64,000 nucleotides of DNA from positions 1,922,001 through 1,986,000 of the forward strand of contig NZ_CP019510.1 of NCBI RefSeq assembly GCF_002002885.1. Direction: 5' to 3'. Numbering within the stretch: position 1 is the stretch's first letter; each line of letters opens with the position of its first letter. Source of the stretch: Janthinobacterium sp. LM6. Lineage in GTDB: Bacteria > Pseudomonadota > Gammaproteobacteria > Burkholderiales > Burkholderiaceae_D. Both the position numbers and the translations under genes were made by a program. Below the pieces are notes generated by a model that saw nothing but the letters and a program-made list of their open reading frames with translations, ran no database searches and had not been told where the DNA came from. Shown in pieces: positions 41,900-60,430 of this stretch.

Positions 41900-44344
41900 A
41901 TGCAAGCACAGCAAAATCAGCGCCAGGCCGCCTCCCTCACCGTCGCGTATTCCGCCGACGACGAGTTCGACCAGGGCAGCATGGTCTCGCTGCATGATTT
42001 CAAGGACCTGGAGCGCAAGGCGGAGGCGCCCGTGCCTGCTGCGCCAGCCGCCGCTGAGCTCCCTGCGCCCCAGCCGCAAGCCTTGCCGGCAGCGGAAGCC
42101 GACGGCAAGGCGCCGGCCGCCGAACGCCAGAAAATGGAATTGAAAGCCATCCACGAGGCGATTGCCCGCGTGGAAGCGGAAGCGAAGGCCACCTGCGCCG
42201 CCGAAAGCCGCGCGTTGGCCGAGGCGCGCGTGCGCTCGCTGGCCGAGGACCGCGCCGCCATTGACGCGGCCGCCGCTGCCGCCGCGCAGCAGAATGCGCA
42301 AGCGGCCGAAGAGGCGATTGCCGCCAACCGCGAACGCCTGGACACCATGCGCGCCGCCGCGCAAGCCAGCGTGGCCCGCCTGGAAGCCGTCAAGCAGGAG
42401 ACGGCCGAATTGCGCGCCCGCGTGGAATCGGACAATGAAATCCGCCTGGCCGCCGAACAGCGCGCCCGCGCCGAGCAGGAAAGCCGTTTGCGCGCCAGCG
42501 AGCAAGTGGCCGTGCAGTCGGAACTGGCCGAGCAGGCCGCCCGCGCCGCCGAGGAATTGCAGGTGCAGACGGAGCAGGCGCGCCTGCAGGCCGTCGAGCG
42601 CGTCGCCGCCGTGCAGGCGGCCAAGGAAGAAATGGTGGGCATCGCCTCGGCCGACGCCAGAGTCGCCGTGCTGGCCCGCGAGCGCGAGCGCCATGCGCAC
42701 GGTGCGCGCCAGACGGCGCAGATGCTGGCCGAAGCGGAAAGCGAAGCGCTGGACTTGACGGTGCAGCGCGAGCGCGCCGACCAGATCGCGCTGGAATCGG
42801 CCTTCAACCGCGCCGCCGCCGAAGTGCGCGCCCTGGAAGAAGCGCGCGCGCTGGCGCACCTGGAACAGGAGCGCGAAGCCATTGCGCTGGCGCAAGCGGA
42901 ATCGGAACGCCATGCGGCGCAATCCCTGCGTTTGCGCCTGCAGACGGAAAAGGAATTGCGCGACGCGGCCATCCACCGCGAGCGCCTGGAAATGGTCGCC
43001 GTGGCCAGCGCGCAGGCGCGCCGCGATGCCGACGTGCGCATCCTGGCCGCCACCGAGGCGCGCATCGAGGTGGACCGCCAGCTGCGCGCCGTGGCGCTGG
43101 CCCGCGTGACCGCCGAACAGGATGCGGAAATCGCCGGCCACGCCAAGCTGGAGGCGGAAACGGCCGCACTGGAACAGACCAAGGCACGCGAAGCGGCCGA
43201 GCAGGCGGCCGCCGTGGCGGCGGCCCGCGAACTGGAAGAACAGCAGCGCGCCGCCAGCCTGGCGCATGAGCGGGCCGAACTGGCGCGCCAGGCGGCGGAA
43301 CTGGCCGCCAGCCAGAACGAAGCCGAGCAGGCCGAAGTCGATGCCGGCAAGGCAACGTTGGCCGCGCAGGCGCAGGCAGCGCAACTGGCACAGGAAAAAT
43401 CCCGGCAGGCGGAGCAGTTGCTGCAAGCTGAGCAGGAGCGCCTGGCCGCGGAACAAGCCGCCATCGCCGCCCTGAAAGAAAAACTGGAAGCGGAAGCGCT
43501 GGCGTGCAACGCGGCGCAGGAGCGCATCGCCGCCGAAGGCGCGCAAGCGGCACTGCTGCGCGGCCAGCACGCCGCCGAACAGGTTTTGCGGGAAGCGGCG
43601 CAAAAGGAAGCCGACGCCATCCGCATCCTGATGGATCAGGCGCTGGTCGAAGGCGAGCAGAAAGCCGCCGCCGCGCAAGCCGTGCAGGCGCAGGCGCGCC
43701 TGGCCGTGGAACTGGGGCAGGTGCACAGCGAGCGCGCCCGCGTGGAAGAAGACAAGGCGCAAGCTGCCGAAGCGCTGCTGGCATCCGAGCGCGATTTCGT
43801 CGCGGCCGAGCGCGAGTCGCTGGCGCTGATTGCGCAAAAACTGGTGCAGCAGCGCCAGACCAGCAGCGCAGAAGAACGCGCGTCGAACGCCATCGCCGGC
43901 CGCCTGGAAGCGGAAAAGCAGGCGACGGCGGCAGCCGACGCGCGCGCCGTGCTGGAACAGCAGGCGCTCGACGCCATGCGCCAGCGCGAGCAGATGGAAC
44001 TGGCTGCGCAGCAGGCCGCCAGCGAGAAGCTTGCCGCACAGCAAGCCTTGCTGGCCAGCGCCCAGGCCCACGCCGCCCTGCAGCGCAAGGCGGCCGAGAC
44101 GACGCGCGCGATGGCCGAGGCCAAGCAGCAATTGCTGGAGATGGAAACGGCGCGCGCGCAGCAACAGGAGCGCGAACTGGCCGCCCTGCGCGCCAGCCTG
44201 GAGCAGCCGCAAAGCGCGTTTTCCAGCTCCTTGAGCGCCGCCCGCGCGAAAGCCGAACAAGTCAGTTCGGCCAGTTTGACGCGCGAAGTGATCGAGCGCT
44301 TGACGCAGCCGAACGACGCTGGTGCCGTCTGGCGCTCACGTTAG
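41900..44344 (+). CDS. Large coiled-coil protein, function unknown
   Basis: 814 residues. The first ~60 residues look structured or signal-bearing, with the acidic DDEFDQGSMVSLHDFKDLERK segment. A Pro/Ala-rich linker follows, then about 650 residues of nearly unbroken Ala/Glu/Arg/Gln heptad-like sequence, and a C-terminal segment ending SSASLTREVIERLTQPNDAGAVWRSR-type residues with no long coil. No signal peptide, membrane helix or enzymatic motif. It resembles TolA- or intermediate-filament-like coiled coils in composition only. It has its own start region (125 bp after srkA) and is followed 5 bp later by palindromic repeat B2. A structural, scaffolding or cell-shape role is possible but unproven. 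Confidence 0.8.
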   Translation: MQAQQNQRQAASLTVAYSADDEFDQGSMVSLHDFKDLERKAEAPVPAAPAAAELPAPQPQALPAAEADGKAPAAERQKMELKAIHEAIARVEAEAKATCAAESRALAEARVRSLAEDRAAIDAAAAAAAQQNAQAAEEAIAANRERLDTMRAAAQASVARLEAVKQETAELRARVESDNEIRLAAEQRARAEQESRLRASEQVAVQSELAEQAARAAEELQVQTEQARLQAVERVAAVQAAKEEMVGIASADARVAVLARERERHAHGARQTAQMLAEAESEALDLTVQRERADQIALESAFNRAAAEVRALEEARALAHLEQEREAIALAQAESERHAAQSLRLRLQTEKELRDAAIHRERLEMVAVASAQARRDADVRILAATEARIEVDRQLRAVALARVTAEQDAEIAGHAKLEAETAALEQTKAREAAEQAAAVAAARELEEQQRAASLAHERAELARQAAELAASQNEAEQAEVDAGKATLAAQAQAAQLAQEKSRQAEQLLQAEQERLAAEQAAIAALKEKLEAEALACNAAQERIAAEGAQAALLRGQHAAEQVLREAAQKEADAIRILMDQALVEGEQKAAAAQAVQAQARLAVELGQVHSERARVEEDKAQAAEALLASERDFVAAERESLALIAQKLVQQRQTSSAEERASNAIAGRLEAEKQATAAADARAVLEQQALDAMRQREQMELAAQQAASEKLAAQQALLASAQAHAALQRKAAETTRAMAEAKQQLLEMETARAQQQERELAALRASLEQPQSAFSSSLSAARAKAEQVSSASLTREVIERLTQPNDAGAVWRSR

Positions 44345-44509: not shown

Positions 44510-45463
44510 TCAAAACTTCCGTCCTACCCCCACCAAAATCACATCCGCATCGCGGTGGTAATCGGTGATGACCCGGTTCCACGCCACTTGCGCCACCCAG
44601 CGGCGGTTGACGTGGTAGCGGGCCACGGCCGACAGCAAGCCTGTCAGGCGCGTGCTGTGGCCCTGGCTGTCGCGCCCGTCCCATGCCACGTAGGGGCCGC
44701 CGCCCATGCCGAATTCCACCTTTTCATTCAGTGAACGGATCAGCCACAGCTGGGCGGCCACGCCGCGCCGGTGCGCCAGGTCGGTGTCGCCTTCATCGAG
44801 GGCGGTGACGCTCCAGTCCACGTATTTTCCCGCCGCGCGCCGGTATTCCAGGGTGAACGGGCGCGAGGACTCGGAGCGCAGGCTGTTGACGATGGTGTGG
44901 CCTGTCGCCAAGGTCAAGGTGTCGTCGTACGCCCAGTTCTGCAAGTGCAGCTTGGCGCCGGGCACGCCGTCATAGCGGTAGCCGGCGCCGATCAGCAGGT
45001 GCGTGGTGTTGTCCTTGCCGTCGGGCTTGATGCGGTTGATTTGCGCTTGCGCATACCAGCGGTTGTCGAATTGCCAGCGCGCCTGCAGGCTGACGATGGA
45101 GCCCCAGCCGTGGTCATTGTCGAAATTGTGCAGGCCGTCGTCGGTCCTGGCCGTGTCGAAGAAAAAGTAGCGGCCCACGCCGGCGCCCAGCATCAGGCCT
45201 TGCTCCACTTTTTTCGTGCGCAGCCAGGCCTGGCCCGCCATGCCGTCGCGGTGATGGTCTTGCGGATGCCCCTCATTGATGTAGGACAGGCTCACGGCAC
45301 TGTAGTTGCCCACCGGCTGCGTGTAGCTGATGGCGGCCACAAAGGTGCGCTCACTGGTCGAATTGACTTTCAGGGCGCCGGCCATGCCGGAGATGTCCTG
45401 TGCCTGTGCGGACAGGGGGTGCGAGGCGGCCAGCAGCGCCAGGGCGATGAATGGTATGCGCAT
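44510..45463 (-). CDS. Outer-membrane beta-barrel protein
   Basis: 317 residues. Signal peptide MRIPFIALALLAASHPLSAQAQ with cleavage after about residue 20-22. The mature protein has alternating amphipathic strands (for example TRLTGLLSAVARYHV and RWVAQVAWNRV) and ends VILVGVGRKF, with the terminal phenylalanine expected of outer-membrane barrels. About 12 strands could be accommodated. Substrate unknown. The ATG at 45463 is chosen because it opens the signal peptide; an earlier start at 45529 would add a non-signal leader. Convergent with the coiled-coil gene across repeat B2. Confidence 0.8.
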   Translation of the reverse strand: MRIPFIALALLAASHPLSAQAQDISGMAGALKVNSTSERTFVAAISYTQPVGNYSAVSLSYINEGHPQDHHRDGMAGQAWLRTKKVEQGLMLGAGVGRYFFFDTARTDDGLHNFDNDHGWGSIVSLQARWQFDNRWYAQAQINRIKPDGKDNTTHLLIGAGYRYDGVPGAKLHLQNWAYDDTLTLATGHTIVNSLRSESSRPFTLEYRRAAGKYVDWSVTALDEGDTDLAHRRGVAAQLWLIRSLNEKVEFGMGGGPYVAWDGRDSQGHSTRLTGLLSAVARYHVNRRWVAQVAWNRVITDYHRDADVILVGVGRKF

Positions 45464-45671
45464 GACGTTTCCAGTGACGGGTGAATACACGCTAATGATC
45501 GGCTGGCGGAGCGACATGCGATGGCACAAGAATCTTGCACATTGACTACATTTGTAAACTGTTCAGCCAGAACTCGTCACAAGTGTACAAGAAAGTGGAA
45601 TGTGTGAGGCGCCGGCCTGGAAAGGCTGGCCGGCGCGGGATTGCTGGACTTGCGGTCGTATTGCTGTCTTA

Positions 45672-46046
45672 TTACTGGCTCAATACGACTTTATCGGCAA
45701 AATATTCCGTCTCGCCGAAGCATTGCGTGGGCACGCCCTTGTGCTGGCTGTAGGTGACGAGGATGCGCTTGCCGGCGGCCGCCGTCAATTGCTTCGCCAC
45801 CTCTTCATCGCGCACGCTGAACTGGAATTTTTCCGGGATGGTGCCCGGCAGCGCCGTCAGCAGCAATTCACCTTCCCATGTCTTGCAGATCCAGCCCCGC
45901 TTGGAGAATTTTTGCAGGTAGCCCGCCCGTTCGCCTTCCGAGTACGAGAAGCTCAGGGCCATCCATGTGTAGGCTGCCAGCAGCAGGAAGCCGGCCACGA
46001 GGAAGATGGCGAAGGCGAAGGTGACTTTTTTGGTCGTTGGGGTCAT
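45672..46046 (-). CDS. Membrane-anchored protein of unknown function
   Basis: 124 residues. One N-terminal transmembrane helix (about 9-31), then a ~90-residue soluble part, probably periplasmic, with YLQKFSKRGWICKTWEGEL, VRDEEVAKQL and VPTQCFGETEYFADKVVL. Two cysteines (in WICKTW and TQCFGE) could form a disulfide. Family not recognised by name. It lies behind the ter operon but is separated from it by palindromic repeat A2, which is a likely terminator, so it may be an independent gene. Confidence 0.75.
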   Translation of the reverse strand: MTPTTKKVTFAFAIFLVAGFLLLAAYTWMALSFSYSEGERAGYLQKFSKRGWICKTWEGELLLTALPGTIPEKFQFSVRDEEVAKQLTAAAGKRILVTYSQHKGVPTQCFGETEYFADKVVLSQ

Positions 46047-46077
46047 GGTAGGGTTGTCTAAGTAAAAAAATGGGGAT

Positions 46078-46167
46078 GCTTAAAAATGTTCAGGGCAAGG
46101 CGCATTGCCGAAGACAGTACGATTAGTACGGCAAGGCAATGCAACGCCGCCATGGACTTTTTTAAGC
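46078..46167. repeat. Palindromic repeat family A, copy 2 (likely ter operon terminator)
   Basis: 90 bp. The ends GCTTAAAAA and TTTTTAAGC are perfectly complementary, differing from copy 1 (8997-9082). The inner part TGTTCAGGGCAAGGCGCATT, GCCGAAGACAGTAC and the closing CGCCATGGAC arms are shared with copy 1. It begins 7 bp after the terA stop and shows a T-run on the minus strand. Confidence 0.85.
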
Positions 46168-46173
46168 GTTCCC

Positions 46174-47412
46174 TCAGTCTTTGCGGCCGGCTTTCCAGTT
46201 GAGGCCAAAGTTGTAGCGCTCGTCCATGGCCTGGTGCGCCGTGATTTTACCTTGGCCGCCGAAGTATTCCACCAATTTTGTCACCTGCAGGTTGCCGCCG
46301 TGGTTTTCCAGCATGGCGATGGCGCACATGGCGTGCTGGCTGTCGCTGTCGAGGCGCACTTCCACGGTTGGCTGGCCGGGAATTTCGATCGTCACGACGC
46401 CATCCGTGGCAGCCCAGTTCGGCACGCCTTCGTAGATGAATGCATACACGAGCACGCGCTTGATCTGGTCGAAATGGGTGCCGTTGATGAAGATGTTTTC
46501 ACCGCTGCTGACGCTGCCCGTGCGGTCGTCGCCTTCCAGGTGGATGTACGGCGGGCGGTCATACGCGCCCCAGCTGTTGCCCAGCGCTTGCACGGCGCTC
46601 TTGGCGCCGCCGCTCATTTCGAACAGGCAGCCGATATCGAGGTCGATGCCGCCGGAACGGCCGGCCGGCTTGTTGAACAGCTTGCCGAGGAAGCCCGTGT
46701 CCAGTTTCGAGGCGGGCGCCTGGCCTTGCGACGCATTCTGGTTCCAGTTCAGGTTGACGCGGATGCGGCCATAGCCGCCGCTGTCGCGCTTGTCGAGCGA
46801 AATCTTGTCGCCGCGCTTTTCCAGGCGGATCTTCGACAGCGAGATTTTATTCGCCGGCGGCGGTGCCGCTGGCGCAGGCACGGGGGCCGGCGCCGGGGAC
46901 GATTGCGCCGCCTCGCTGCCGCCGAAGTGCTTCAGCAGCGCCGCCAGGCCGCCCGCGAAACCCTGGCCCACGGCGCCGAAGCGCCAGCTGCCGTCGCGGC
47001 GATACAGTTCGCCGATGATGACGGCTTTCTCGTCCTGGAAGTCCGTGCCCGTGAAGGCAAACGTGGCTGCCTGGCCCAGCGCCATGCTGGAATTGCCCAG
47101 CGCGCGCATGCTGCCCTGTTCCGTCGCCGCCGTGAAGACCAGCTTGTCGATCGAGGCGGGCAGGCGGGAGAGGTCCACCTGGAAGGTGGAGCGGGGGCCG
47201 TTCAAGTCCACCGTGACGGCGTTGTCCGGCGCGCTTTTCTGGTTGTAGAACACCATGTAGCGGTCGTCCGACAGCTTGCCGGCCGCATCGACGCCGAAGC
47301 AGCTGACGTCCACTTCCATCGAACCCGATACGATATCGAGCGTGACGGCAAACGGGCCATTCAAGCCCAGGTCAGCCAGTTTGCCTTTTTGTCCGCGTGT
47401 GAAATTGGTCAT
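46174..47412 (-). CDS. terA: TerA-type tellurium-resistance / stress protein with two TerD-like domains
   Basis: 412 residues. The N-terminal TerD-like domain covers about 1-160 (FTGTDFQDEKAVIIGELYRRDG, WRFGAVGQGFAGGLAALLKHFGG). A Pro/Ala linker (about 165-190) leads to the TerA-specific domain with IDLDIGCLFEMSGG, AVQALG and YIHLEGDDRTG. Acidic residues in these loops bind calcium in related proteins. It is the last gene of the ter operon and overlaps the preceding lyase gene by four bases; the ATG at 47412 is preferred over an earlier GTG-type start inside that gene. Confidence 0.88.
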   Translation of the reverse strand: MTNFTRGQKGKLADLGLNGPFAVTLDIVSGSMEVDVSCFGVDAAGKLSDDRYMVFYNQKSAPDNAVTVDLNGPRSTFQVDLSRLPASIDKLVFTAATEQGSMRALGNSSMALGQAATFAFTGTDFQDEKAVIIGELYRRDGSWRFGAVGQGFAGGLAALLKHFGGSEAAQSSPAPAPVPAPAAPPPANKISLSKIRLEKRGDKISLDKRDSGGYGRIRVNLNWNQNASQGQAPASKLDTGFLGKLFNKPAGRSGGIDLDIGCLFEMSGGAKSAVQALGNSWGAYDRPPYIHLEGDDRTGSVSSGENIFINGTHFDQIKRVLVYAFIYEGVPNWAATDGVVTIEIPGQPTVEVRLDSDSQHAMCAIAMLENHGGNLQVTKLVEYFGGQGKITAHQAMDERYNFGLNWKAGRKD

Positions 47413-48395
47413 GGTCGTGCAATCCCTTCGTCGCTTGAGAGTTGAGTCAATGAGGTAGTCGGTACGTGCGCCGGCGCCGTGTCGGCCGCGTGGCGGATGC
47501 CGAACAGGCGCGCCTGCTCGATGATGCGCTGCGCCCAGCTGCTGTGCGTGGCCACTTCGCACATCGATTCCTGCATGCGGAACACGGCCGGGCTGTCCGG
47601 ATCGATGATGCGCAGCGCCAGTTCGATGTCCGACTGCGCCACCTGGTAATGGCGTTCGATCTGCGGCACCTGGTCCGGGTGGATGGCCGTCTTGGCGATC
47701 ATGCCGTGGGCCATGTCCTGCGCCACTTCGGCGTCCAGCCAGCTGCCTTGCGACAGGTGCTCGAAGACGGGCGCCGTCAGCTGGAAGCCGTGCGGCTTGA
47801 AGATGGTCACCAGGCGGCCGATGACCTGCCCCAGCGGGGTTGAATAGATGGTGCCGCTGGTGGGGCGGCGCAAGCCCAGCAGGGCTAATAAATCGTTGCC
47901 GCCGATGCGCAGGGCCAGGATGCGGCGCCGCACTTCCGGCGCCGACAAAATGATGCGGAACTGCTTCATTTCCTCGTCGTCGAACACTTCCGCCGTTTCC
48001 AAGGTCGGCATCAAGAGGTGATGCGTGTGGCGCACGAGGTCGAAATACGCGGCGAAATTGTGGCGCGTCGATTTCGGCAGCACGAAGCCGCTCAACTTGT
48101 CGGCGCCGGGCATGGCCAGCACGCGCGCCAGCACCTCGAGGTTACGCACGCGCACGAAGCGCAAGGTATCCGATTCGTCGGCCATGTTTTGCAGCGCCAG
48201 CGACAGGTTGAACAGCGCGTAACTGAGGTCGCGTTCGGCGATGGCGTCTTCGGTGCAAAGGATGACCGAGCGCAAATGGCTGAATTTGTCGCCATTGGCG
48301 ATCGCCAGCAAGTCCTTGTGCGTGGTCGGCACATACATGGAGGCGCCCAGCGCCGCCTTGTGCTCGCTTTGCGGGTGTAGGGAGTTGTTATCCAT
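47409..48395 (-). CDS. HpcH/HpaI aldolase / citrate lyase beta-like protein of the ter cluster
   Basis: 328 residues, a TIM-barrel relative of the CitE and HpcH/HpaI family (AMPGADKLSGFVLPKSTRH, LMPTLETAEVF, LALRIGGNDLLALLG, IAKTAIHPDQVPQIE). The family cleaves or forms C-C bonds with Mg2+ and CoA-type or keto-acid substrates. In ter clusters it is thought to serve a biosynthetic path with the neighbouring ATP-grasp, phosphoribosyltransferase and HAD enzymes. The ATG at 48395 has AGGAG 9 nt upstream and overlaps the StiP gene by eight bases. Confidence 0.85.
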   Translation of the reverse strand: MDNNSLHPQSEHKAALGASMYVPTTHKDLLAIANGDKFSHLRSVILCTEDAIAERDLSYALFNLSLALQNMADESDTLRFVRVRNLEVLARVLAMPGADKLSGFVLPKSTRHNFAAYFDLVRHTHHLLMPTLETAEVFDDEEMKQFRIILSAPEVRRRILALRIGGNDLLALLGLRRPTSGTIYSTPLGQVIGRLVTIFKPHGFQLTAPVFEHLSQGSWLDAEVAQDMAHGMIAKTAIHPDQVPQIERHYQVAQSDIELALRIIDPDSPAVFRMQESMCEVATHSSWAQRIIEQARLFGIRHAADTAPAHVPTTSLTQLSSDEGIARP

Positions 48396-49494
48396 CGACT
48401 GCGCTCCTGATAAGGGCAACCGCCTGGTAAGGCAGCGCCGGTTCTACTGTGACGGGTATGGCTTTTTCCTGCGCCAGAAGCAGCAAATGTGCCACGTCCG
48501 GCGCATTCGTGTCGCGCACGATCAGGCGCTCGGGCACGCGGCGCAGCAGCACGCGCGTCGCTTCGCCGATGCCTGGCTTGATCAGGTTGATGTCGCTGAT
48601 GCCGTATTCTTGCTGCGCCGCGGCCATGTAGGCTTGCGAGCGGGCCGCCATGGCTGGCGCGTCGCTCGCTTCGGCCAGCGGGATGCCGCTGCTGGCGGCA
48701 ATCGCCATGGCGTCGGCCACCAGGCCGTCGGCGAAGGCGCGCGACTGGTCGTGCTGCTCGAACTGCGCGTAGTACACGCAGCCGTGGAAGTCCTCGGGGC
48801 CGATGGCTTCATTGAGCACGGAGCGGCTGACCAGGCCCGAAACGGTGGCATTCAAGATGCTCGACGGGATCAGGTAGTCGCTGGCCGAGGCGGCGCAGGC
48901 GGCCGTGCCGGCCAGGTCGGACAGCACGAACAGGCCGCCGTCGATGGCCGTGCCATTGGCCGCGTTGAAATCGTGGACCGTCTGGCGCAGTTCGCGCGAA
49001 ATCACGCCCTTGCCCGTCCAGCCGTCGACGAAGACGAGGGATTCAGCTGCATGGCCCTGCGCCAGGATGTGCTTCAAGGCATTCGCATCGATGCCGCGGT
49101 CGCGGATGATGGAGACGGAATAATGGCTGCACTCGCGCTGGAAGACCTGGCGCAGCAAATGGCCCAGGATGACGCCCACGGGCGTGCCGGCGCGCGCCAG
49201 CGACACCAGGGTGACGGGGCCGGCACGGCGTGCCGCGATCAGGGCGGCCAGGCGCAGGCAGTCGCGCGCCATCTGCAGGCGGTTGGCCGCAAATGCGCTC
49301 TGGAACAGGGCCAGGTAGGCGGGCGAGGGCAGGGATTCCGGCGACAGCATCTCGCTGTAGTGGCGCTGGCCCGACTGGATCAAACGCTCTTTTTCGGCCA
49401 GGTCGAGGATCGGTTCGAGCGCCATCGGCGTGAGCAGAAACTCCACGTCTTCCTGGCGGTAGCTGCCGCTGAAATGCTGCGTGCTGTCGCTCAT
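48388..49494 (-). CDS. StiP-like (cysteine protease family) protein with C-terminal PELOTA RNA-binding domain
   Basis: 368 residues. N-terminal StiP-type domain (about 10-270) with VEFLLTPMALEPILDLAEKERLIQSG, SLARAGTPVGVILGHLL, HYSVSIIRDRGID and FVDGWTGKGVISREL. The last two resemble a phosphoribosyltransferase active site, and this family has been placed near that fold. The C-terminal ~85 residues (INLIKPGIGEATRVLLRRVPERLIVRD) match a PELOTA-like RNA-binding domain. Recognised from ter gene clusters. Overlaps the HAD gene by four bases. Confidence 0.82.
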   Translation of the reverse strand: MSDSTQHFSGSYRQEDVEFLLTPMALEPILDLAEKERLIQSGQRHYSEMLSPESLPSPAYLALFQSAFAANRLQMARDCLRLAALIAARRAGPVTLVSLARAGTPVGVILGHLLRQVFQRECSHYSVSIIRDRGIDANALKHILAQGHAAESLVFVDGWTGKGVISRELRQTVHDFNAANGTAIDGGLFVLSDLAGTAACAASASDYLIPSSILNATVSGLVSRSVLNEAIGPEDFHGCVYYAQFEQHDQSRAFADGLVADAMAIAASSGIPLAEASDAPAMAARSQAYMAAAQQEYGISDINLIKPGIGEATRVLLRRVPERLIVRDTNAPDVAHLLLLAQEKAIPVTVEPALPYQAVALIRSAVDG

Positions 49495-50243
49495 AGCGCC
49501 GCCACCGTGAGTGCCGCCAGCTGGGTGCCGTTGGGGATGATGGCGTAGTCGCAGGCGGCCATGAAGCGGGCGTCCGAACGGCTGTCGCCCATGCCGAAGC
49601 TGACGATGGGGCCGTGTTCGGCTTCCAGTTCCGCGCGCAGGTAGGCCACGGCGCGCGCCTTGTTCAAGGTCTTCGGCAGCACGGCCAGGTTGTTGCCGTT
49701 GCGGTGGATGAAGTAGTCGCTGCCTTCCGTGGCGATCCACTGTTGCAGCACCTGCTCTTCGATGTCGGCCAGGCGCTCGCCGCGCGCTTCATGGTCCTTG
49801 ACGACGATGTAGAACGGCGTGTTGTAGTCCTCGATCAGGCGCGCGCGCGAGGGCATGCCCGTCCTGGCCTGGAAATCGTCGATGATGCGCATGGCGTCCC
49901 GCAGGCCGGGCAAGGCCGTCTGCATGTCGTCCTGCATCAGGGCCAGCCAGCCCGCGTCGAGCGCGCCGCCCGGCTGCAGCACGATGCCGCCGTAATCGAG
50001 CACGCTGTAGCTGGTAAACGGCAGGTCGACGCGGCGGAAGGCGTCGCCATTTCTCGCCGTGGCGGGAATCAGGGTCATGCCGCTTTGCGCAAAGTCAAAG
50101 AAGGCGCGCTGGCGCGCCGTCGTAAACGAGCAGGCGTCGCCATTTTTCAGATAGGCGGCCGGCTGCAGGTCGGTCTCGCCGACGCATTTTTTCGGGGTCT
50201 GGAACAGTGTGTCGTCCAGATCAACAAACAGGAATTTCTTCAA
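49491..50243 (-). CDS. HAD-superfamily phosphatase of the ter cluster
   Basis: 250 residues from the TTG at 50243. HAD motif I FVDLDDTLFQ (D8, D10), a motif II threonine in IPATARNGDAF, a motif III lysine region (LPKTLNKARAV) and motif IV MGDSRSDARFM are all present, so catalysis is expected. The likely role is to remove a phosphate from a pathway intermediate. TTG is chosen since it gives MKKFLFVDLDDTLF, like homologues; ATG at 50279 would overlap the upstream gene by 59 bp. The overlap with that gene is 23 bp with the TTG start. Confidence 0.82.
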   Translation of the reverse strand: MKKFLFVDLDDTLFQTPKKCVGETDLQPAAYLKNGDACSFTTARQRAFFDFAQSGMTLIPATARNGDAFRRVDLPFTSYSVLDYGGIVLQPGGALDAGWLALMQDDMQTALPGLRDAMRIIDDFQARTGMPSRARLIEDYNTPFYIVVKDHEARGERLADIEEQVLQQWIATEGSDYFIHRNGNNLAVLPKTLNKARAVAYLRAELEAEHGPIVSFGMGDSRSDARFMAACDYAIIPNGTQLAALTVAAL

Positions 50244-51378
50244 TTTGGGTCTCTGACAGAAAGTGGAACAGGCGGCCATTCAACTGGCCGGCGAGTTGCA
50301 TGAGGGCCGGGCTGGCCGGGGTTTCATGGCAGATGAGAACGTGCTGGTACTGGCCAGGCGCCACGTTGTACAGGTAATTGGCGATGCCTTCGCCGTAATT
50401 GTCGTCGCAGCGGACGATGTGGCCGACGGAGCCCCACGACAGGATGGGCGAGCGCGTGGTCGATTGCACCACCACGTTCTTGCCCAGGCTTTCCAATTCG
50501 CGCGCGAGCAGGAACGACGGATGCATGAATTCGCCCGTGCCCAGCACCAGCACGGAGTCGCCGGCACCGATTTCCTGCGCCAGCTGCACCGCCAGGCCCT
50601 GTGGCGGCGCCAGGGCGCGGCCCACGCCGATGCGGCCAAACGCGGGGCTGGCGCCCCGTTCCGCATTCGCCTCGAAGCGCTGCGCGCTGGCCGCCACGGG
50701 GGCTGGCGCAGCGCCGGCCTGGAAGGCGTACTGGCCGGACAGCGCCGCGCCTATGCTGGTGGGCAGGCCGAAACGCTCACTCAAGCCCCCGTTGGCTGCC
50801 TGGCCCATGAAATTGGTGATCACGCCCAGGTGCAGCTTTTCCAGCTGCGGATAGCGCGCGCGGCACACTTGCACCAGGTTGGCGAAGGTATTGCCGGTCG
50901 ATGCTTCATCGTCGATCAGCACCAGGCTGCGCGCCGTGGAAAACAGGGCGCTGGCAGCATCGGACAAATGCAGGAACTGGCGCGGCGCGTGGCTGTGCGA
51001 TTCCTCGAATTCGAAGAACGGCACCGTGCCCACGCGGTAGCGCGAGCTGTGCAAAAACAGGGCCTTGCCATTCGGATTGGCGCGCAGCCACGCCTCGAAC
51101 ACGCCCTGGCCCAGGCCGACGGCCGTTTCCGCCATGGCGATGAAGACCACGGGACCGGGCAGGCTGGGGGGAATCTGCGCGGCCAGGTCGTCGTGGATGG
51201 TTTGCATGGCGCGCGGCGTGACGGGCCAGTGCTTGCCCAGCACCTTGGACAGGAACAAAAAGCCCCGCTTGGCGTTGGCGCGCGCGGCAAAGCCGATCAG
51301 CCAGTCCAGCGGAAAGCGCGCCTCGTCCACTTTCAAGGTCAGTTCGCCCGTGGGCATCTGCTGCTTGACGAGGTTCAT
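50221..51378 (-). CDS. Phosphoribosyltransferase-domain protein of the ter cluster
   Basis: 385 residues. The PRPP-binding loop LVLIDDEASTGNTFANL (about 152-168; DDEASTGNT at 156-164) is intact, preceded by VVFIAMAETAVGLGQ. The C-terminal half (about 235-385) is a TRSP-like domain with DSVLVLGTGEFMHPSFLLAREL and FHFLSETQIEEIPVC. Together these are the proposed enzymes forming a nucleoside-like product. Overlaps the ATP-grasp gene by ATGA. Confidence 0.85.
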   Translation of the reverse strand: MNLVKQQMPTGELTLKVDEARFPLDWLIGFAARANAKRGFLFLSKVLGKHWPVTPRAMQTIHDDLAAQIPPSLPGPVVFIAMAETAVGLGQGVFEAWLRANPNGKALFLHSSRYRVGTVPFFEFEESHSHAPRQFLHLSDAASALFSTARSLVLIDDEASTGNTFANLVQVCRARYPQLEKLHLGVITNFMGQAANGGLSERFGLPTSIGAALSGQYAFQAGAAPAPVAASAQRFEANAERGASPAFGRIGVGRALAPPQGLAVQLAQEIGAGDSVLVLGTGEFMHPSFLLARELESLGKNVVVQSTTRSPILSWGSVGHIVRCDDNYGEGIANYLYNVAPGQYQHVLICHETPASPALMQLAGQLNGRLFHFLSETQIEEIPVC

Positions 51379-52412
51379 GGCAGCTCCACGGCGTAGGCGG
51401 CTTCGCCCACGCGCATGCCTTCCTGGATGGCGGGCACGGTGAGCTTGTCAAAGCCCTGGTCGAAACCGGCCAGCGCCAGGTAGGGCAGGTTGGGGCCGGC
51501 CGCGCACGCCATGCCGATGCCGCCCGACATGCGCGGATTGATCTCCAACAAAGCCAGGCCATTCGCTCCTTCGCGGAACTGGATGTTGAAGACGCCGTTC
51601 AGGCGGTAGTCGCGCGCCAGTTTGTCGCAGGCTGCCAGCAGGTCGGCGCGCAGTTCGATCAGCTGGCCGCTGCCGCCCCCATGCAGCTTCTTGCGCGGCA
51701 CGGCGCAAATGAGCTTGCCCTGGTCGGCGACGCAGTCGGCGCTGTACTCGTGGCCATCGAGGTATTCCATCAGCAGCAGGGTCTTGAACGATGCCATCTG
51801 CGCCAGGCCGTTGCGCAGCTCTTGCGCATTGATCTGGTAGGCGGCGCCGGCCAGCAACAGCTGGGCGCTGGTGCGCTCTTCATCGAGAATGGCAAAGCCC
51901 AGGGCATACACGGATTCGGACGGCTTGATGCACAGCTTGCGATGCAGCGGGCGCAGTTCGGCGCAGGCGGCGTCGTATTCCGCGATGGTGGTCACGGCGC
52001 GGTAGTCGGCCGGGCGCGCCATGGGCAGATCGAGGCCGTCGCAGAAGCGCGCCTTGTCATGCATCAAGGTCAGTGTCTCTTCGCTGGCCACGCTGAGCAC
52101 ACGCGTGCCGATGGCGGCGAAACGCGCGCTGGCGCTGCCGATCAGGCCCGCTTCCTTGCCGGGCCAGAAAATCGTGATGCCCCGGTCGCGGCAAAATTCC
52201 AGGCACCACTCGACATAATCGAGGCCCGTGAGGCCGGACGGTTCGACCGCGTATTCGTGGGCCGACAAAAAGGCGGCCGCGTGCGCGTTCGTATTGCTGC
52301 ACACGAGGTGATAGCGGGGCGCACCGCCGGTTGCGGCCATATCGGCTTCGCGGATCAGGCGCATGGCCGTGCCGACCGAGGAAAATGTTTTGTTGAACCA
52401 GACTCTTTGCAT
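51375..52412 (-). CDS. ATP-grasp ligase of the ter cluster
   Basis: 345 residues. ATP-grasp features: KLCIKPSESVYALGF, LLLMEYLDGHEYSADCVAD, and the metal-binding FNIQFREGANGLALLEINPRMSGG. Such enzymes form amide or thioester bonds with ATP. It should condense two small molecules in the ter-linked pathway. It is the first of six overlapping genes and starts 98 bp after the AIM24-type gene. Confidence 0.87.
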   Translation of the reverse strand: MQRVWFNKTFSSVGTAMRLIREADMAATGGAPRYHLVCSNTNAHAAAFLSAHEYAVEPSGLTGLDYVEWCLEFCRDRGITIFWPGKEAGLIGSASARFAAIGTRVLSVASEETLTLMHDKARFCDGLDLPMARPADYRAVTTIAEYDAACAELRPLHRKLCIKPSESVYALGFAILDEERTSAQLLLAGAAYQINAQELRNGLAQMASFKTLLLMEYLDGHEYSADCVADQGKLICAVPRKKLHGGGSGQLIELRADLLAACDKLARDYRLNGVFNIQFREGANGLALLEINPRMSGGIGMACAAGPNLPYLALAGFDQGFDKLTVPAIQEGMRVGEAAYAVELP

Positions 52413-52510
52413 GTACGGGGACCGGGTGGAAATAGGGGAAGCCGCGCGCAGGTGCGCGCGCGGGGATTCTAAGCGGCCAGACTTAACCTGGCCTTATAGA
52501 GGAGAGGGAA

Positions 52511-53227
52511 TCAGCCGGCTTTGCCGCTGGCCGTCCATTTGAGGAAGGCGTCGCGGTTGCGCGAGCAGATGAACACCTTGCCCGAGCCGGAAAAGCGCAG
52601 CACGATGCCTTCGCCGCTGGTCACGCTGTTGACGATATTGCCGAGGAAGCCGCCGATGCCGCCGCCGCTGGCGCCGCCGCCCGTGGTCACGGAAATCTCG
52701 TATTTCAGGCTGTTGTCCCAGCAGACCACGTGGGAATTATCGATCACGACGTCCTTGCCCGGCTCGACGTCGAGCTGGAACATGGAGCCGAAGCCCGACA
52801 CCACCACTTGTCCCGTGCCGGCCGTCTCCATGACGAAGAAGCCGCCCGACTGGGCGAACAGCGCGTTGCCGATGCTTTGCGTGCGCACCTTCATTTCCGT
52901 GCCCGAGGTGGCGGCGACAAAGGCGCCGTCGTTGAGCAGGTACTGGCGCGCGCCCACGTCGACCACTTCGATGGCGCCCGGCAGGGTCGGCGAGAGCAGG
53001 CAATCGCCGCTGCCGCGCACCGCTTCGATATGCTGCTGGAAGAACGATTCGCCATTCGCGAAGCGGCGCATGATGGCGCTGCCCAGGCCGCCCGTCATCT
53101 TGCCTTTCAAGTCCAGCGCCGTTTCCATCATCACCATCGCGTCGGATTCGCAATAGATGGTTTCGCCCTGTTTCATGCTGACGTGGAGGAAAGGATCGAC
53201 GTCGCCCGTGACACTAAATACTGGCAT
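52511..53227 (-). CDS. AIM24 / TIGR00266-family protein
   Basis: 238 residues. A tandem beta-sandwich protein with MVMMETALDLKGKMTGGLG, RRFANGESFF, GALFAQ-type repeats, DVVIDNSHVVCWDNSLKYEI and GLY-rich GGGASGGGIGGFLGNIV. This family often accompanies ter genes; biochemical role unknown. Intracellular, no signal peptide. It lies 130 bp downstream of terD on the same strand. Confidence 0.85.
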   Translation of the reverse strand: MPVFSVTGDVDPFLHVSMKQGETIYCESDAMVMMETALDLKGKMTGGLGSAIMRRFANGESFFQQHIEAVRGSGDCLLSPTLPGAIEVVDVGARQYLLNDGAFVAATSGTEMKVRTQSIGNALFAQSGGFFVMETAGTGQVVVSGFGSMFQLDVEPGKDVVIDNSHVVCWDNSLKYEISVTTGGGASGGGIGGFLGNIVNSVTSGEGIVLRFSGSGKVFICSRNRDAFLKWTASGKAG

Positions 53228-53357
53228 GATAAATCTCCAAAAAAAAGCCGCCTGATCTGTGCAGGCGGCAGTAATGATATGACAAAAGTGCAATTCACCT
53301 CGGGAAACCGTCGCCGGCACGCCCGATCAGCGGCCAGCAGGTTTAACGAGCGTGAAT

Positions 53358-53933
53358 TTAAGCGTTCACGCCGAACGAGCGTGCGAGAGGGCCCAGGCCG
53401 CCATTGAAGCCCTGGCCGATAGCCTTGAACTTCCATTCGCCGTTGTAGCGGTAGATTTCGCCAAAGATCATCGCCGTTTCCGTCGAGCTGTCTTCGGACA
53501 GGTCGTAGCGGGCGATTTCTTTTTCGCCTTCCGCGTTCAGGCAGCGGATGAAGGCTTTCGAGACCATGCCGAAGTTCTGGCGGCGCGCGTCGGCGTCGTG
53601 AATGGTGACGGTGATGCTGATGCGGTCGATGTCGGCCGGCACGCGCGACAGGTCGATTTCGATGCGCTCATCGTCGCCTTCGCCTTCGCCCGTGGTGTTG
53701 TCGCCCGTGTGGACGACGGAGCCGTCGGTCGATTTCAGGTTGTTATAGAAGATGAAGTCAGAGTCGCCACGGACTTTGCCGTCGCTTTTCAGGAGGAAAG
53801 CGCTACCGTCAAGGTCGAAGGTGGCGCCATCCGTCGAACGAGGATCCCAGCCGAGGCCGACGATGATCTTCTTCAGGTTCGGTGCTTCCTTGCTCAGGTT
53901 GACGTTGCCGCCTTTTTGCAAACTGATTGCCAT
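53358..53933 (-). CDS. terD: TerD-family calcium-binding stress protein
   Basis: 191 residues, typical TerD length. [20 protein letters not shown] is the standard start. Family core: [47 protein letters not shown], and [19 protein letters not shown]. Acidic clusters (GEGEGDDE) fit the known calcium sites. It belongs to the ter response to tellurite, phage and oxidative stress. It lies 102 bp after the DUF475 gene. Confidence 0.95.
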
Positions 53934-54035
53934 GTGGTGCTCCTTTTCAGTAATTTACTTAAACATGCCTGCATGGAATGAGCGCCTAAGGCGCTCGTGC
54001 CATTACTCTCTCAATTGGGGACGATCTCCCCGATT

Positions 54036-55118
54036 TCAAGCTTGTGCCGCGTGCCGTTTGCGATAACGCAAGGACGACCACAGCGAGACCAGGATGAAGG
54101 CCACGCCCGACAGGCCCGTGAACCACTCCGGAATATGGTACTTGACGGACGCCAGCATGATCAAGGCGAGGATGCCGATCGCATAATGGGCGCCGTGCTC
54201 GAGGTAGACGAATTCGTCCAGGGTGCCCTTGTGCACCAGGTATACCGTCATCGAGCGCACGAACATGGCGCCGATGGCCAGGCCCAGCATGATGATGACG
54301 ACGTCGTTGGTGATGGCGAACGCGCCGATCACGCCGTCAAAGCTGAACGAGGCGTCCAGCACTTCCAGGTACAGGAAGCCGCCGATGCTGCCGCGCGCCA
54401 CGGTTTTTACCAGGTCGCCGTTGCCGTTCCTGGCCGGCGCGGCGTTTTCTTCTGCGTCATCCTGCAAGTCCGGTTCGCCTTCTTCCAGCAAGCCGCTGAT
54501 CCAGTTCACGCCGATGTAGACGGCGATGCCGACGATGCCCGACGCGAGCACGCTGTATTTGGCTTCCGCAGGACCCATCGCCACGCAGGCGGCCACGGCG
54601 CCCATGGTGATCAGCACGGCCAGGCTTTCGGTGCCCAGCGCGTTGACTTTTTCCTCGGCCCAGCCCAGCCAGTGCAATTCCTTCTCGTCGTCGAACAGGA
54701 AGTTCAGGAACACCAGCAGCAAAAAGGCGCCGCCGAAGGCCGCCACTTGCGCATGGTTGTCCGTCAGGTGCTTGGCGTACACATCGGGCGTCGTGGTGGC
54801 CATGGTCCACACGTCGACGAGGCCCAGGCCCGTGGCGACGGAAACGATGACCAATGGAAACAGCAGCCGCATGCCGAAGACGGCCACGAGGATACCCACC
54901 GTCAAGAACAGTTTTTGCCAGAATTCATTCCAGTGACGCAAGACCGAGGCATTCACCACGGCATTGTCGAACGACAGCGACACTTCCATGATGCCCAGCA
55001 CGCCCGTGATCCACAGGGCATTGATCAGGCCCGGCATGCCGCCATGGCTGTAACCCCACCAGCCTGACACAGCCATCAGGATAAAAGTGACTAAAAAGGA
55101 AATTCTGAAATGCCGCAT
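54036..55118 (-). CDS. DUF475/TerC-like integral membrane protein
   Basis: 360 residues with about nine hydrophobic segments. It shows the two family half-motifs SLSFDNAVVNASVL (near residue 48) and DASFSFDGVIGAFAITND (near 257). TerC homologues are proposed metal-ion (Mn2+, Ca2+) transporters or anchors for TerD complexes. It is the first gene of the ter cluster; the promoter should be in 55119-55366, which I could not resolve. Confidence 0.87.
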   Translation of the reverse strand: MRHFRISFLVTFILMAVSGWWGYSHGGMPGLINALWITGVLGIMEVSLSFDNAVVNASVLRHWNEFWQKLFLTVGILVAVFGMRLLFPLVIVSVATGLGLVDVWTMATTTPDVYAKHLTDNHAQVAAFGGAFLLLVFLNFLFDDEKELHWLGWAEEKVNALGTESLAVLITMGAVAACVAMGPAEAKYSVLASGIVGIAVYIGVNWISGLLEEGEPDLQDDAEENAAPARNGNGDLVKTVARGSIGGFLYLEVLDASFSFDGVIGAFAITNDVVIIMLGLAIGAMFVRSMTVYLVHKGTLDEFVYLEHGAHYAIGILALIMLASVKYHIPEWFTGLSGVAFILVSLWSSLRYRKRHAAQA

Positions 55119-55366
55119 GAGGACCCCGTTGCAAATATGAAAGACGTTTGATTATCCGCGCCGCTGTACGCGCCGCACTCGGTGTTGATATACGTCAATT
55201 GTTGTATATGCCATGATTTTATATTAGTTGCCGCCGGGGGCGGCGTTTTATAGGGCGACGACAGACAGTTTTGCTGGCGCGGCCGATCTGCGATAATTGC
55301 GGCGCGCCCATCCGGCTGCCGCAGTTTCTTGCACACTCTCGACATATATATAAGAAGGAATACCCC

Positions 55367-55792
55367 GTGGATATCGCTTACCTCGTCACGCCCCTGATCA
55401 CCTGGATCCTGGTCGGACCGATCAAATTCCTGATCAACAGTGTCCGCACGCGGCAATGGGCGTTCGGCCTGGTCGGCAATGGCGGCTTTCCCAGCAACCA
55501 TAGCGCCGTCGTTTCCAGCATGGCAACCCTGATCGCCTTGCGCGAAGGCATCGGCCATCCCGCCTTCGGCGTGGCAGTGACCCTGGCCTTCATCGTCATC
55601 ATCGACGCCAACAGCCTGCGCCAGCACGTGGGCAAGCAGGCGGCCGCCATCAACCGCCTGGCCAAGGAAGCAGCCAGCCCCGCGCACAAGACCTTACGCG
55701 AGCGCATGGGCCATACCCTGGTGGAAATCGCCGGCGGCCTGTGCACGGGCGTGGCCATCGGTTTCCTGATCAACACCGTTTTTGCCCGCTAA
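55367..55792 (+). CDS. DUF212 / acid-phosphatase-related integral membrane protein
   Basis: 141 residues with three to four hydrophobic segments. Family motif NGGFPSNHSAVVSSMATLIA is intact, followed by IIDANSLRQHVGKQA. This family is distantly related to vanadium-dependent haloperoxidase and PAP2 phosphatases. GTG at 55367 is chosen because AAGGAA lies 6 nt upstream. It is divergent from the ter cluster. Confidence 0.87.
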   Translation: MDIAYLVTPLITWILVGPIKFLINSVRTRQWAFGLVGNGGFPSNHSAVVSSMATLIALREGIGHPAFGVAVTLAFIVIIDANSLRQHVGKQAAAINRLAKEAASPAHKTLRERMGHTLVEIAGGLCTGVAIGFLINTVFAR

Positions 55793-55801
55793 GTTCGCTT
55801 C

Positions 55802-55849
55802 CCCTGAAACGCAAAACCCCGCTTCAAGGCGGGGTTTTGCGTTTCAGGG
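55802..55849 (+). terminator. Long perfect hairpin terminator
   Basis: A 21-bp perfect stem (CCCTGAAACGCAAAACCCCGC at 55802-55822 against its exact complement at 55829-55849) with loop TTCAAG. T-rich portions lie inside the stem. It follows the DUF212 gene by 9 bp. Confidence 0.8.
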
Positions 55850-56032
55850 CGTAAAAACTACGTTTCATCCATTGATTAAAGCATTACAGGAAACCGCCGA
55901 TTGACATGCCCGGACGCGCTCATGGATACTTTGGCGCTTGTGGTTTTAATAAAAATATTATGCTTGCTATCGCTTGCAGCCCTATCCGGGCCGCGGCAAC
56001 GGTAGTGGTGCTATCTATCCGGAGAATTACCC

Positions 56033-57205
56033 ATGTTGCGCAAAACCCTGTTTGTTCTGGCAATCGCTTCTGCCCTGGCCGCCTGCGGCAAAGAGTCCAA
56101 AGATCCCGGCAAGGGCGGCAAGAATGCCAAGGAACAGGCGGGCGCTGCCGCCAATTTGCTCGTGTCCCCGGAAGACTTGCTGACCATCCAGAGCAATGCG
56201 CTGGCGTCGGGGCCGGTCATCACCGGTTCCGTGCAGCCCGAGCGCAACGCGGATTTGCGCGCCGAAGTGTCGGCCGTGGTGATCCAGGTCATGAAGGAAA
56301 ACGGTGAAATCGTCAAGCGGGGCGACGTGCTGGTGCGCCTGGACGAAACGTCCATCCGCGACGGCCTCAATTCGGCCGAGGAAGCCAGCCGCGCCGCCGG
56401 CCAGGTGCTGGAGCAGTCCGAACGCATGTTCCAGCGCATGAAAACCCTGCGCGCTTCGGGCATGACCTCGACGCAGGCGCTGGAAGACGCGGAAATCCGC
56501 CGCAACAATGCGCAAAGCGATCTGTCCGCCGCGAAAAGCCGCGCCGTGCAAGCGCGCCAGCAATTGCAGCGCACCCTCGTGCGCGCGCCGTTCGACGGCA
56601 TCGTGAGCGAGCGCAAGGTATCGAATGGCGATACGGCGCAAATCGGCAAGGAATTGATCAAGGTCATCGATCCAACCAGTATGCGCCTGGAAGGCCTGGT
56701 GTCGGCCGACAAGATCGGCGTCGTCAAGGTGGGCCAGCCCGTGCTGTTCCGCATCAATGGCTATCCGGGACAGGATTTCGCGGGCAAGGTGCGCCGCGTC
56801 GATCCGGCCGCCAATGCCGTCACGCGCCAGGTGGCCGTGCTCGTCGATTTCAATGACAAGGAACAACCGCGCGTGGCGGGCCTGTATGCGGAAGGGCGCA
56901 TCGAGACGGAGACCGTCAGCGCGCTGATGATCCCCGACTCGGCCCTGGTGAAGGCGGGCGACGTCACGTACACGTGGAAAGTCAAGGACAAGGCCTTGCA
57001 TAAAGTCAATTTGCGCATCGGTGCGCGCGACGTGCGCACGGGCCAGTGGGAAGTGCAAAGCGGCCTGGCCAGCGGCGATACCGTGCTGCGCACGCCGGGC
57101 TCGACCTTCAAGGATGGGCAGAAAGTGGAATTGACGGCCGCCAAGGCCGTGCCAGCCGCCGCCGTGGCCAGCAGCAGCACCGCCGTTGCCGGTAAAGGAA
57201 ACTAA
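56033..57205 (+). CDS. RND efflux periplasmic adaptor lipoprotein (AcrA/MexA-like)
   Basis: 390 residues. Lipoprotein signal MLRKTLFVLAIASALAACGK with lipobox LAAC, modified cysteine at residue 19. Barrel-sandwich halves: DLRAEVSAVVIQVMKENGEIV-type start and TLVRAPFDGIVSERKVSNGD, around a coiled coil (about 110-175). C-terminal membrane-proximal part with Ala-rich tail. It overlaps nothing and is 3 bp from the permease gene, so they form one operon. GGAG lies 8 nt upstream of the ATG. Confidence 0.92.
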   Translation: MLRKTLFVLAIASALAACGKESKDPGKGGKNAKEQAGAAANLLVSPEDLLTIQSNALASGPVITGSVQPERNADLRAEVSAVVIQVMKENGEIVKRGDVLVRLDETSIRDGLNSAEEASRAAGQVLEQSERMFQRMKTLRASGMTSTQALEDAEIRRNNAQSDLSAAKSRAVQARQQLQRTLVRAPFDGIVSERKVSNGDTAQIGKELIKVIDPTSMRLEGLVSADKIGVVKVGQPVLFRINGYPGQDFAGKVRRVDPAANAVTRQVAVLVDFNDKEQPRVAGLYAEGRIETETVSALMIPDSALVKAGDVTYTWKVKDKALHKVNLRIGARDVRTGQWEVQSGLASGDTVLRTPGSTFKDGQKVELTAAKAVPAAAVASSSTAVAGKGN

Positions 57206-57208
57206 GCC

Positions 57209-60200: not shown

Positions 60201-60430
60201 TCGTGCCGACCTTCTATGACAGCATCGAAATCGCCCGCGATGGCGCCGTGGCCAAGTTCCACCGCCGCGCCGCGCGCATGCCCGTGGCCGTAGCCATGCT
60301 ATTGACCTTGATCGAGTGCGTACTGACCCTGCTGCTGGTGCGCTTCGCCTACCGCATGCTGAAAAAGGCCGTGCTGTTCCTGATGGGACGCCGCACGCCG
60401 AAGGCGGCGTCGGTCAGCCTGCAAAAGTAA
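57209..60430 (+). CDS. RND efflux permease (HAE1/AcrB-type)
   Basis: 1,073 residues with the usual 12 membrane segments and two large periplasmic loops. TM4 has the proton-relay acids in AIGVLIDDAIVVRENIVR. Other signatures: PGASPDTVEREVVNRLE, NQNTNAPVGKVRG and LMGLVAKNAILLLD (TM10). It is about 30 residues longer than AcrB at the C-terminus, with a basic tail. No outer-membrane factor follows, so it probably uses one encoded elsewhere. Confidence 0.95.
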   Translation: MFLSDFSIKRPTATIVLILAMMCVGLLALKKLRVNQNPDVEVPFIVVSIPYPGASPDTVEREVVNRLEKSLQSISGVTEVNSDSNEGSASIFLKFSFNTNLIEASDNIRNAIAAVRYKLPTEMREPILQRIDPAAEPIMQLALSSNTQSHAEISRLAEDVLSDRFRTVDGVALVNVGGSLKRELSVLLRAEKLREYNVSVSDVVTALRNQNTNAPVGKVRGTLDEKSIRLVGRIESPSDFEKVVIKRRGEEIVRLAQVATIEDGFAEVNSLSMRSGKPNVGISITRVRDASTVSVANKIRDMVAEINKTLPKGTILQVTRDGGENAQHSLNNVIESLVLGAVLTIFVVYAFLNSWRSTLITALSLPTSVIAAFIAVWLCGFTLNFMTLLGLSLAIGVLIDDAIVVRENIVRHMQMGKDRRTAALEGTAEIGMAVAATTFSIIAVFIPVAFMPGISGEWFRPFALTVTCSVLVSLGISFTLDPMLSAYWGDPVEEHSAPKKGIGRVLEKFNHWFDHQADRYGRVIAWALHHRRWMAVIAFGSLVGAIVLHATHGGTSFLPASDSGNLMINVRTPSSSSIEYSRLKLEAAAVLARTLPETKDTNSSINAGGGRVYVDIGKRNTRKRSAKEIAVELREKMSRLVGAEYVVQDDLSNGSQKPIQVEFTGPDSRKLMEITNAYMDKLRAIPGAVDVGLSEQDPKNELQIELNRGLANSMGISVNDAAQSLRVAFAGVEVGDWVDPTGETRDVAVRLHPDDRVASENIERLPISVTGTSQMVPLDQIATITMGKGPSGIEHKNGKRTITVSANAQGRSNGEVTSDAMKLANSIDFPPGYGLALGGAGQDQQELFTEMLIALVMGIGLMYLILVMQFGSFTAPVAVMMSLPLSLIGVVVALVITNNTLNLMSFIGIIMLMGLVAKNAILLLDAARKREEEGHGREDALMYAGRMRLRPILMTTFALIAGMFPVALGLGEGGEFYRPLAIAIIGGTITSTILTLLVVPTFYDSIEIARDGAVAKFHRRAARMPVAVAMLLTLIECVLTLLLVRFAYRMLKKAVLFLMGRRTPKAASVSLQK

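Follow-up and report, generated by a model that had tools for sequence, protein, structure and literature searches.

A Ter stress cluster of Janthinobacterium sp. LM6 that appears to combine two phosphoribosyltransferase-type proteins with a phosphatase, and its possible ribosylated product

Janthinobacterium sp. LM6 carries a cluster of nine Ter-associated genes at positions 46174-55118 of the 64,000-nucleotide stretch analysed here (contig NZ_CP019510.1, positions 1,922,001 to 1,986,000; called the window below, and all coordinates refer to it). The whole set is encoded on the minus strand; read from 55118 towards 46174, the order is DUF475, TerD, AIM24, ATP-grasp_Ter, PRTase_2-TRSP, HAD, StiP-PELOTA, C-C bond lyase and TerA. 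A Ter-linked biosynthetic module for a nucleoside-like compound was reportedly proposed by Anantharaman, Iyer and Aravind in 2012 (Mol Biosyst 8:3142), and a preliminary description of this DNA was right to connect the cluster with that proposal from comparative genomics.

The cluster starts with a DUF475 / TerC-superfamily integral membrane protein of 360 amino acids (54036-55118; Pfam PF04332, E 1.4e-106, and PF03741, 7.4e-17), followed by a TerD of 191 amino acids (53358-53933; PF02342, 2.5e-87) and an AIM24-family protein of 238 amino acids counted from its ATG (52511-53227; PF01987, 1.8e-55). The biosynthetic genes begin with an ATP-grasp ligase of the Ter type (ATPgrasp_Ter; 51375-52412, 345 amino acids; PF15632, 1.1e-43) and a phosphoribosyltransferase (PRTase), PRTase_2, with a C-terminal TRSP domain (50221-51378, 385 amino acids; Pfam PRTase_2 2.2e-58, TRSP 1.6e-19). 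Next come a HAD phosphatase of the class IIB type (49491-50243, 250 amino acids, with a presumed TTG start at 50243), StiP-PELOTA, whose older Pfam name is PRTase_1 (48388-49494, 368 amino acids; PF11202, 1.3e-98, and PF15608), and a CitE/HpcH-like lyase (C-C_Bond_Lyase; 47409-48395, 328 amino acids; PF15617, 1.2e-91). The last gene encodes TerA, a TerD-domain protein of 412 amino acids (46174-47412; PF02342, 1.8e-33), which is joined to the lyase gene by an ATGA overlap. Gaps of 102, 130 and 98 nt lie between the first four genes, and the last six overlap by 4, 23, 4, 8 and 4 nt, in that order. The Pfam matches and sequence coordinates bear out the gene identities, positions and order given in the preliminary description, including the six overlapping genes. 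The five members of the module (ATP-grasp_Ter, PRTase_2-TRSP, HAD, PRTase_1/StiP-PELOTA and C-C bond lyase) are encoded together, with TerD-domain and TerC-superfamily genes adjoining them. The Pfam match of the HAD protein is at superfamily level only (S6PP, 1.3e-5); against solved HAD structures deposited as trehalose phosphatase (PDB 6cj0 and 6d3v) it reaches E 4.3e-31. For the C-C bond lyase, a sequence search found no PDB relative at E 0.01, and for StiP no NCBIfam model matches at E 0.01.

The preliminary description counted one PRTase and, apart from it, StiP. Both genes were correctly identified, but by profile and model StiP is itself of PRTase fold, so that the cluster holds two proteins of the type that uses phosphoribosyl pyrophosphate (PRPP). 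Judging from its profile, its motifs and a confident AlphaFold model, StiP looks like a PRTase fold joined to an L7Ae-like domain; the older Pfam name already implied the former, and the latter is matched by PELOTA_1 (PF15608, E 2.4e-33 to 3.2e-33). Of the residues in the L7Ae-like motif that presumably contact RNA, the E, the T and a basic residue are kept, and the asparagine position is G or A. The two PRTase-type proteins differ in their PRPP loops. The core of PRTase_2 is APRT-like, and its loop is canonical, with an adjacent pair of acids. The StiP loop reads D-G-W-T-G-K-G and has a single acid, with D157-G158 in 83/83 aligned sequences in place of the canonical adjacent acid pair; StiP is for this reason filed as a non-canonical protein of PRTase fold. 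The top structural match of the StiP model (VIA-align) is Bcs3-CriT, an enzyme that transfers ribose-5-phosphate from PRPP to a hydroxyl group and is partnered with a HAD phosphatase; the lead of this match over nucleobase-type PRTases is small.

Residue conservation was followed in alignments of 61-83 sequences, the window included, after truncated rows and rows of unusual length had been left out (HAD 3/80, lyase 2/80, ATP-grasp 2/62, PRTase_2 5/79, StiP 0/82). Invariant positions are D8, D10, T62, K195, D220 and D224 in HAD (78 sequences), D156, D157, E158, T161, G162 and T164 in PRTase_2 (75), E290, N292 and R294 in the ATP-grasp protein (61), and E49, D50, R84, E133 and D168 in the lyase (79); from what is known of these families, we take these to be the catalytic ones. 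In StiP, S98, R101, G103, S128, R131, D136, D157-G158-W159 and G161-K162-G163 are invariant (83 sequences). The catalytic motifs had been called intact from the window alone, and this holds up, as the expected residues are present here, are invariant in the aligned relatives, and none is lost on alignment. Such residues indicate that the enzymes could work, and nothing beyond that.

A sample of 397 Pseudomonadota genomes, drawn without regard to the cluster, separates a core from the rest. StiP and PRTase_2 are above the cut-off in the identical 15/397 genomes (weaker matches below it, in 20 further genomes for PRTase_2 and 5 for StiP, were not counted); the chance value for two such identical sets is 1.8e-27, or 2.6e-20 by genus, a figure that takes no account of relatedness and should not be read as a probability. 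The Ter HAD is found in 14 of these 15 genomes. Since the lyase and ATP-grasp families also match in unrelated control genomes, only strong matches were counted for them, which gave the lyase (E <1e-79) in 9/15 and the Ter-type ATP-grasp (E <1e-40) in 6/15. Six extra genomes, picked because their loci looked short, have PRTase_2 in 6/6, a strong lyase in 4/6 and a strong ATP-grasp in 1/6. Closer relatives were taken from the best 80 of 584 loci, a choice biased toward close relatives, and 62 of the 80 extend at least 6 kb before StiP and at least 3 kb beyond it. In these 62, PRTase_2 is found in 61, HAD in 61, the lyase in 60 and ATP-grasp in 53, and the five enzyme genes stand adjacent in the window's order in 48. 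A minimal version is seen in a Methyloprofundus draft (L149:5664-11561), which has DUF475, two TerD-type genes, PRTase_2, HAD, StiP and a putative TerB-like gene; the rest of that assembly gave no strong match for the lyase or for a Ter-type ATP-grasp. What the genomes share is a core of two PRTase folds and a phosphatase, and the lyase and ATP-grasp seem to be optional tailoring enzymes. The "complete set" of the preliminary description is thus present here in the sense that every enzyme is encoded, but it is not a requirement, because the lyase is found in only 9 and the ATP-grasp in only 6 of the 15 StiP-positive genomes.

The reading favoured here, to which a probability of roughly 0.38 is given, is that of a Ter stress cluster whose core of two PRTase-type proteins and a HAD phosphatase ribosylates an acceptor from PRPP. 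The two PRTase-type proteins would pass the ribose-5-phosphate of PRPP to the acceptor, and the HAD phosphatase would then likely strip off the phosphate; the predicted product is most likely a ribosylated metabolite and is possibly O-linked. With its APRT-like core and acidic PRPP loop, PRTase_2 would make an ordinary phosphoribosyl compound, and StiP, whose fold is CriT-like and whose PRPP loop has only one acid, may move ribose-5-phosphate to a hydroxyl; its L7Ae-like domain possibly grips RNA or an RNA-like acceptor. As optional tailoring, the ATP-grasp may add an acid or amino acid and the CitE-like lyase may shorten or extend an acyl-CoA building block. TerD, TerA and DUF475 would take part in sensing of, or response to, the product or metal stress. 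Of all this, the genes, the conserved residues, the link of StiP to PRTases by profile and its strict pairing with PRTase_2 in the sampled genomes are observed, the fold is predicted, and the reactions are proposed.

Several results weigh against this reading. The CriT match leads nucleobase-type PRTases by 0.3-1.4 Z only, its alignment range on StiP extends into the L7Ae-like domain, and the loop-1 acid of CriT, D680, has no counterpart in the S-L-[A/V]-R-A-G loop of StiP. The acids of StiP are D157 in loop 3 and D132 and D136 in loop 2, with none in loop 1; StiP is not filed as a CriT-type member, because it lacks the acidic pair split between loop 3 and loop 1. In Foldseek the first rows for StiP are pyridoxal phosphate enzymes at a TM of about 0.2, and L7Ae and HPRT chains rank after them, at E 3.5e-3 to 1e-2. 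Profile searches gave no significant PDB sequence match for StiP (best E 0.011, to L7Ae-type chains on the C-terminal domain) or for PRTase_2 (best E 0.076). The HAD was not found in 1/15 StiP-positive genomes. Several of the 15 are drafts, and the absences of lyase and ATP-grasp may partly be gaps or divergence beyond the profile.

The published explanation, in which the module produces a small nucleoside-like compound that diffuses and serves as a signal or protectant, is a serious contender and nearly as likely as the favoured one; the fold also fits ribose transfer to a hydroxyl. Here both PRTases would act on nucleobase-like acceptors, the HAD would free the nucleoside, and ATP-grasp and lyase would decorate the base or the ribose. 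Against it stand the missing second acid in the StiP PRPP loop (83/83), the fact that the best structural match of StiP is an O-transferase, and the genomes in which the Ter-type lyase (6/15) or the Ter-type ATP-grasp (9/15) was not found; because of these absences, a compound decorated by both enzymes is not the common product. StiP-PELOTA could also be a PyrR-like regulator, a non-catalytic PRTase fold whose L7Ae-like domain controls RNA, with PRPP or the product of the pathway as the cue. This is less likely. Against it, the residues of the pyrophosphate (PPi) loop and the PRPP loop do not vary, a degree of conservation that an inactive fold would hardly seem to require, and no Rfam family reaches the gathering score in 45000-57000. 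A bolder version of ribosylation would make StiP-PELOTA a stress-linked RNA-ribosylating enzyme, with the L7Ae-like domain on kinked RNA, the CriT-like PRTase domain transferring ribose-5-phosphate from PRPP to an RNA hydroxyl and the HAD removing the phosphate. We consider this improbable; if true, the Ter system would act through covalent RNA ribosylation and not through a diffusible nucleoside.

The label of cysteine protease, which StiP bears in current Pfam and NCBI product names, is hardly credible. What speaks for it is the names only. In two alignments (83 and 10 sequences) StiP has no invariant cysteine: C239 is kept in 81/83 and 9/10, C79 in 69/83 and 2/10, and C200 in 56/83 and 2/10. 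Its profile and structural relatives are PRTases. No protease assay appears in the available literature passages on StiP or PF11202, and by term search neither is mentioned in the main text of a 2023 survey of papain-like proteinases (PMC10318531).

The nine genes form a real cluster but are unlikely to share one transcript, because a conserved terminator-like hairpin follows TerD; there are probably at least two transcription units. The hairpin lies in the TerD/AIM24 gap (53239-53269, minus strand) and has a perfect 8-bp stem, a 7-nt loop and a tail of eight T. Its stem core GCCGCCTG/CAGGCGGC and a T-rich tail recur in 17/17 Janthinobacterium loci holding the gap, with varying loop letters (L092 and L093 end before the gap and were left out of this count). 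In other genera a hairpin is found in this gap in 1/10 loci, with a different stem and a poorer tail. Across the whole region terminator-like sites are not above chance (15 vs 11.6 +/- 4.0), and the case for this terminator rests on its T8 tail and its conservation. A promoter scan was uninformative (2 found vs 2.2 expected in shuffles). The Rfam scan of 45000-57000 gave five matches with E 0.05-0.9; a known RNA element near the cluster, such as a Mn riboswitch, was rejected, all matches being below the gathering score. Upstream of DUF475 there is a palindrome, ATATAC-N10-GTATAT (55188-55209, minus strand), kept in 10/13 relatives among the rows listed, and farther upstream a ATTATCGCAGATC block kept in 15/17 relatives; from its sequence, this region is a candidate operator and promoter region. 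The AIM24/ATP-grasp gap has more than 100 extra bases in seven Janthinobacterium loci (L077-L079, L081, L083, L084 and L086) that are not present in the window.

The host genome is 6.29 Mb in a single contig, and the locus is single-copy, chromosomal and typical of the genus. StiP, PRTase_2, Ter lyase, HAD and ATP-grasp each have one match in the genome, and therefore only the window locus carries the biosynthetic set. TerD-domain genes number seven, at three places; a second ter locus (L008:5717-8948) reads DUF475-TerD-AIM24-TerD, and a third (L009:9160-12415) combines a TerF-like vWA protein with two additional TerD-domain proteins; neither locus has biosynthetic genes. StiP is present in 23/24 congeners, in 44/195 genomes of the family (own genome included) and in 0/16 genomes of other families in the order. 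The closest named relatives by StiP, among the best 80 of 584 loci, are Janthinobacterium with 98% identity. The comparison of gene order called for in the preliminary description shows the identical nine-gene order in 17/62 relatives' loci with enough flank, all of them Janthinobacterium, and the order is thus no accident of this genome; TerD-domain genes lie near StiP in 59/62. A clustering of the ORFs flanking these loci was dominated by shadow frames and carries no weight here. In the 17 Janthinobacterium loci with enough DNA, the genes flanking the cluster on either side have matches, except that one downstream gene is missed in 7, and the base composition of the region is ordinary; a horizontally acquired island was rejected on these two grounds. 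A known anti-phage defence system was likewise rejected, as a PADLOC search with the nine proteins and one neighbour gave 0 hits at E 0.01. Relatives also occur on two viral contigs, and Ter genes in jumbo phages have already been reported (PMC7824862). As for the neighbourhood, an 814-amino-acid protein rich in Ala, Glu and Gln, probably a coiled coil and without a Pfam match, is encoded at 41900-44344 (plus strand), and the AT skew is 0.39 over 42001-44000 of the window. Genes for an HlyD-type adaptor and an AcrB-type RND pump (56033-60430, plus strand) are divergent from the cluster, and the 17 Janthinobacterium loci extending that far contain matches to them.

The Ter-linked module was already known in outline. 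What is new here is the strict pairing of StiP with PRTase_2, the minimal core, the case against the protease label and the comparison with CriT; no paper connecting CriT-type transferases with StiP/PRTase_1 or with the Ter module was found in the open PMC literature. The StiP family is large (at least 7,977 proteins at E <= 1e-5), and among the matches listed many NCBI-named members are labelled cysteine protease StiP. Should that name be wrong, experiments are looking for the wrong reaction. With the Ter module reduced to two co-occurring PRTase folds and, in nearly all cases, one phosphatase, the result is a system of three proteins for work in vitro, and the characterised PRPP-dependent O-ribosyl transferases offer a concrete assay, namely loss of PRPP with release of PPi or phosphate (Pi) followed by 31P nuclear magnetic resonance. 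Such an assay would address a product that has had the status of a proposal since 2012.

Compared with the 2012 Ter-linked module, nothing categorical sets the cluster apart. Common to both are ATP-grasp_Ter, PRTase_2-TRSP, HAD, PRTase_1(StiP)-PELOTA and the C-C lyase, adjoining TerD and TerC-like genes; here DUF475 is the TerC-like gene, AIM24 stands in front and TerA behind. The classical terZABCDEF tellurite operon has TerD and TerA family proteins and a TerC-superfamily membrane protein, all of which recur here; unlike it, the cluster carries biosynthetic genes, and DUF475 presumably takes the place of TerC. PyrR and HPRT-type PRTases share the core fold and the PPi- and PRPP-loop positions with StiP, but their PRPP loop has D-D where StiP has D-G-W-T-G-K-G, and StiP adds an N-terminal region and the L7Ae-like domain. 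Haemophilus influenzae type b (Bcs3 CriT/CrpP) and Campylobacter jejuni (Cj1432) couple PRPP-dependent O-ribofuranosyl transfer with HAD dephosphorylation. As in CriT, the PRPP loop of the StiP PRTase fold lacks two neighbouring acids, and a HAD phosphatase is the partner (14/15 genomes, 61/62 loci); unlike Bcs3 and Cj1432, the cluster encodes its enzymes in separate genes, adds an L7Ae-like domain and a second PRTase of canonical type, and has no polymerase module.

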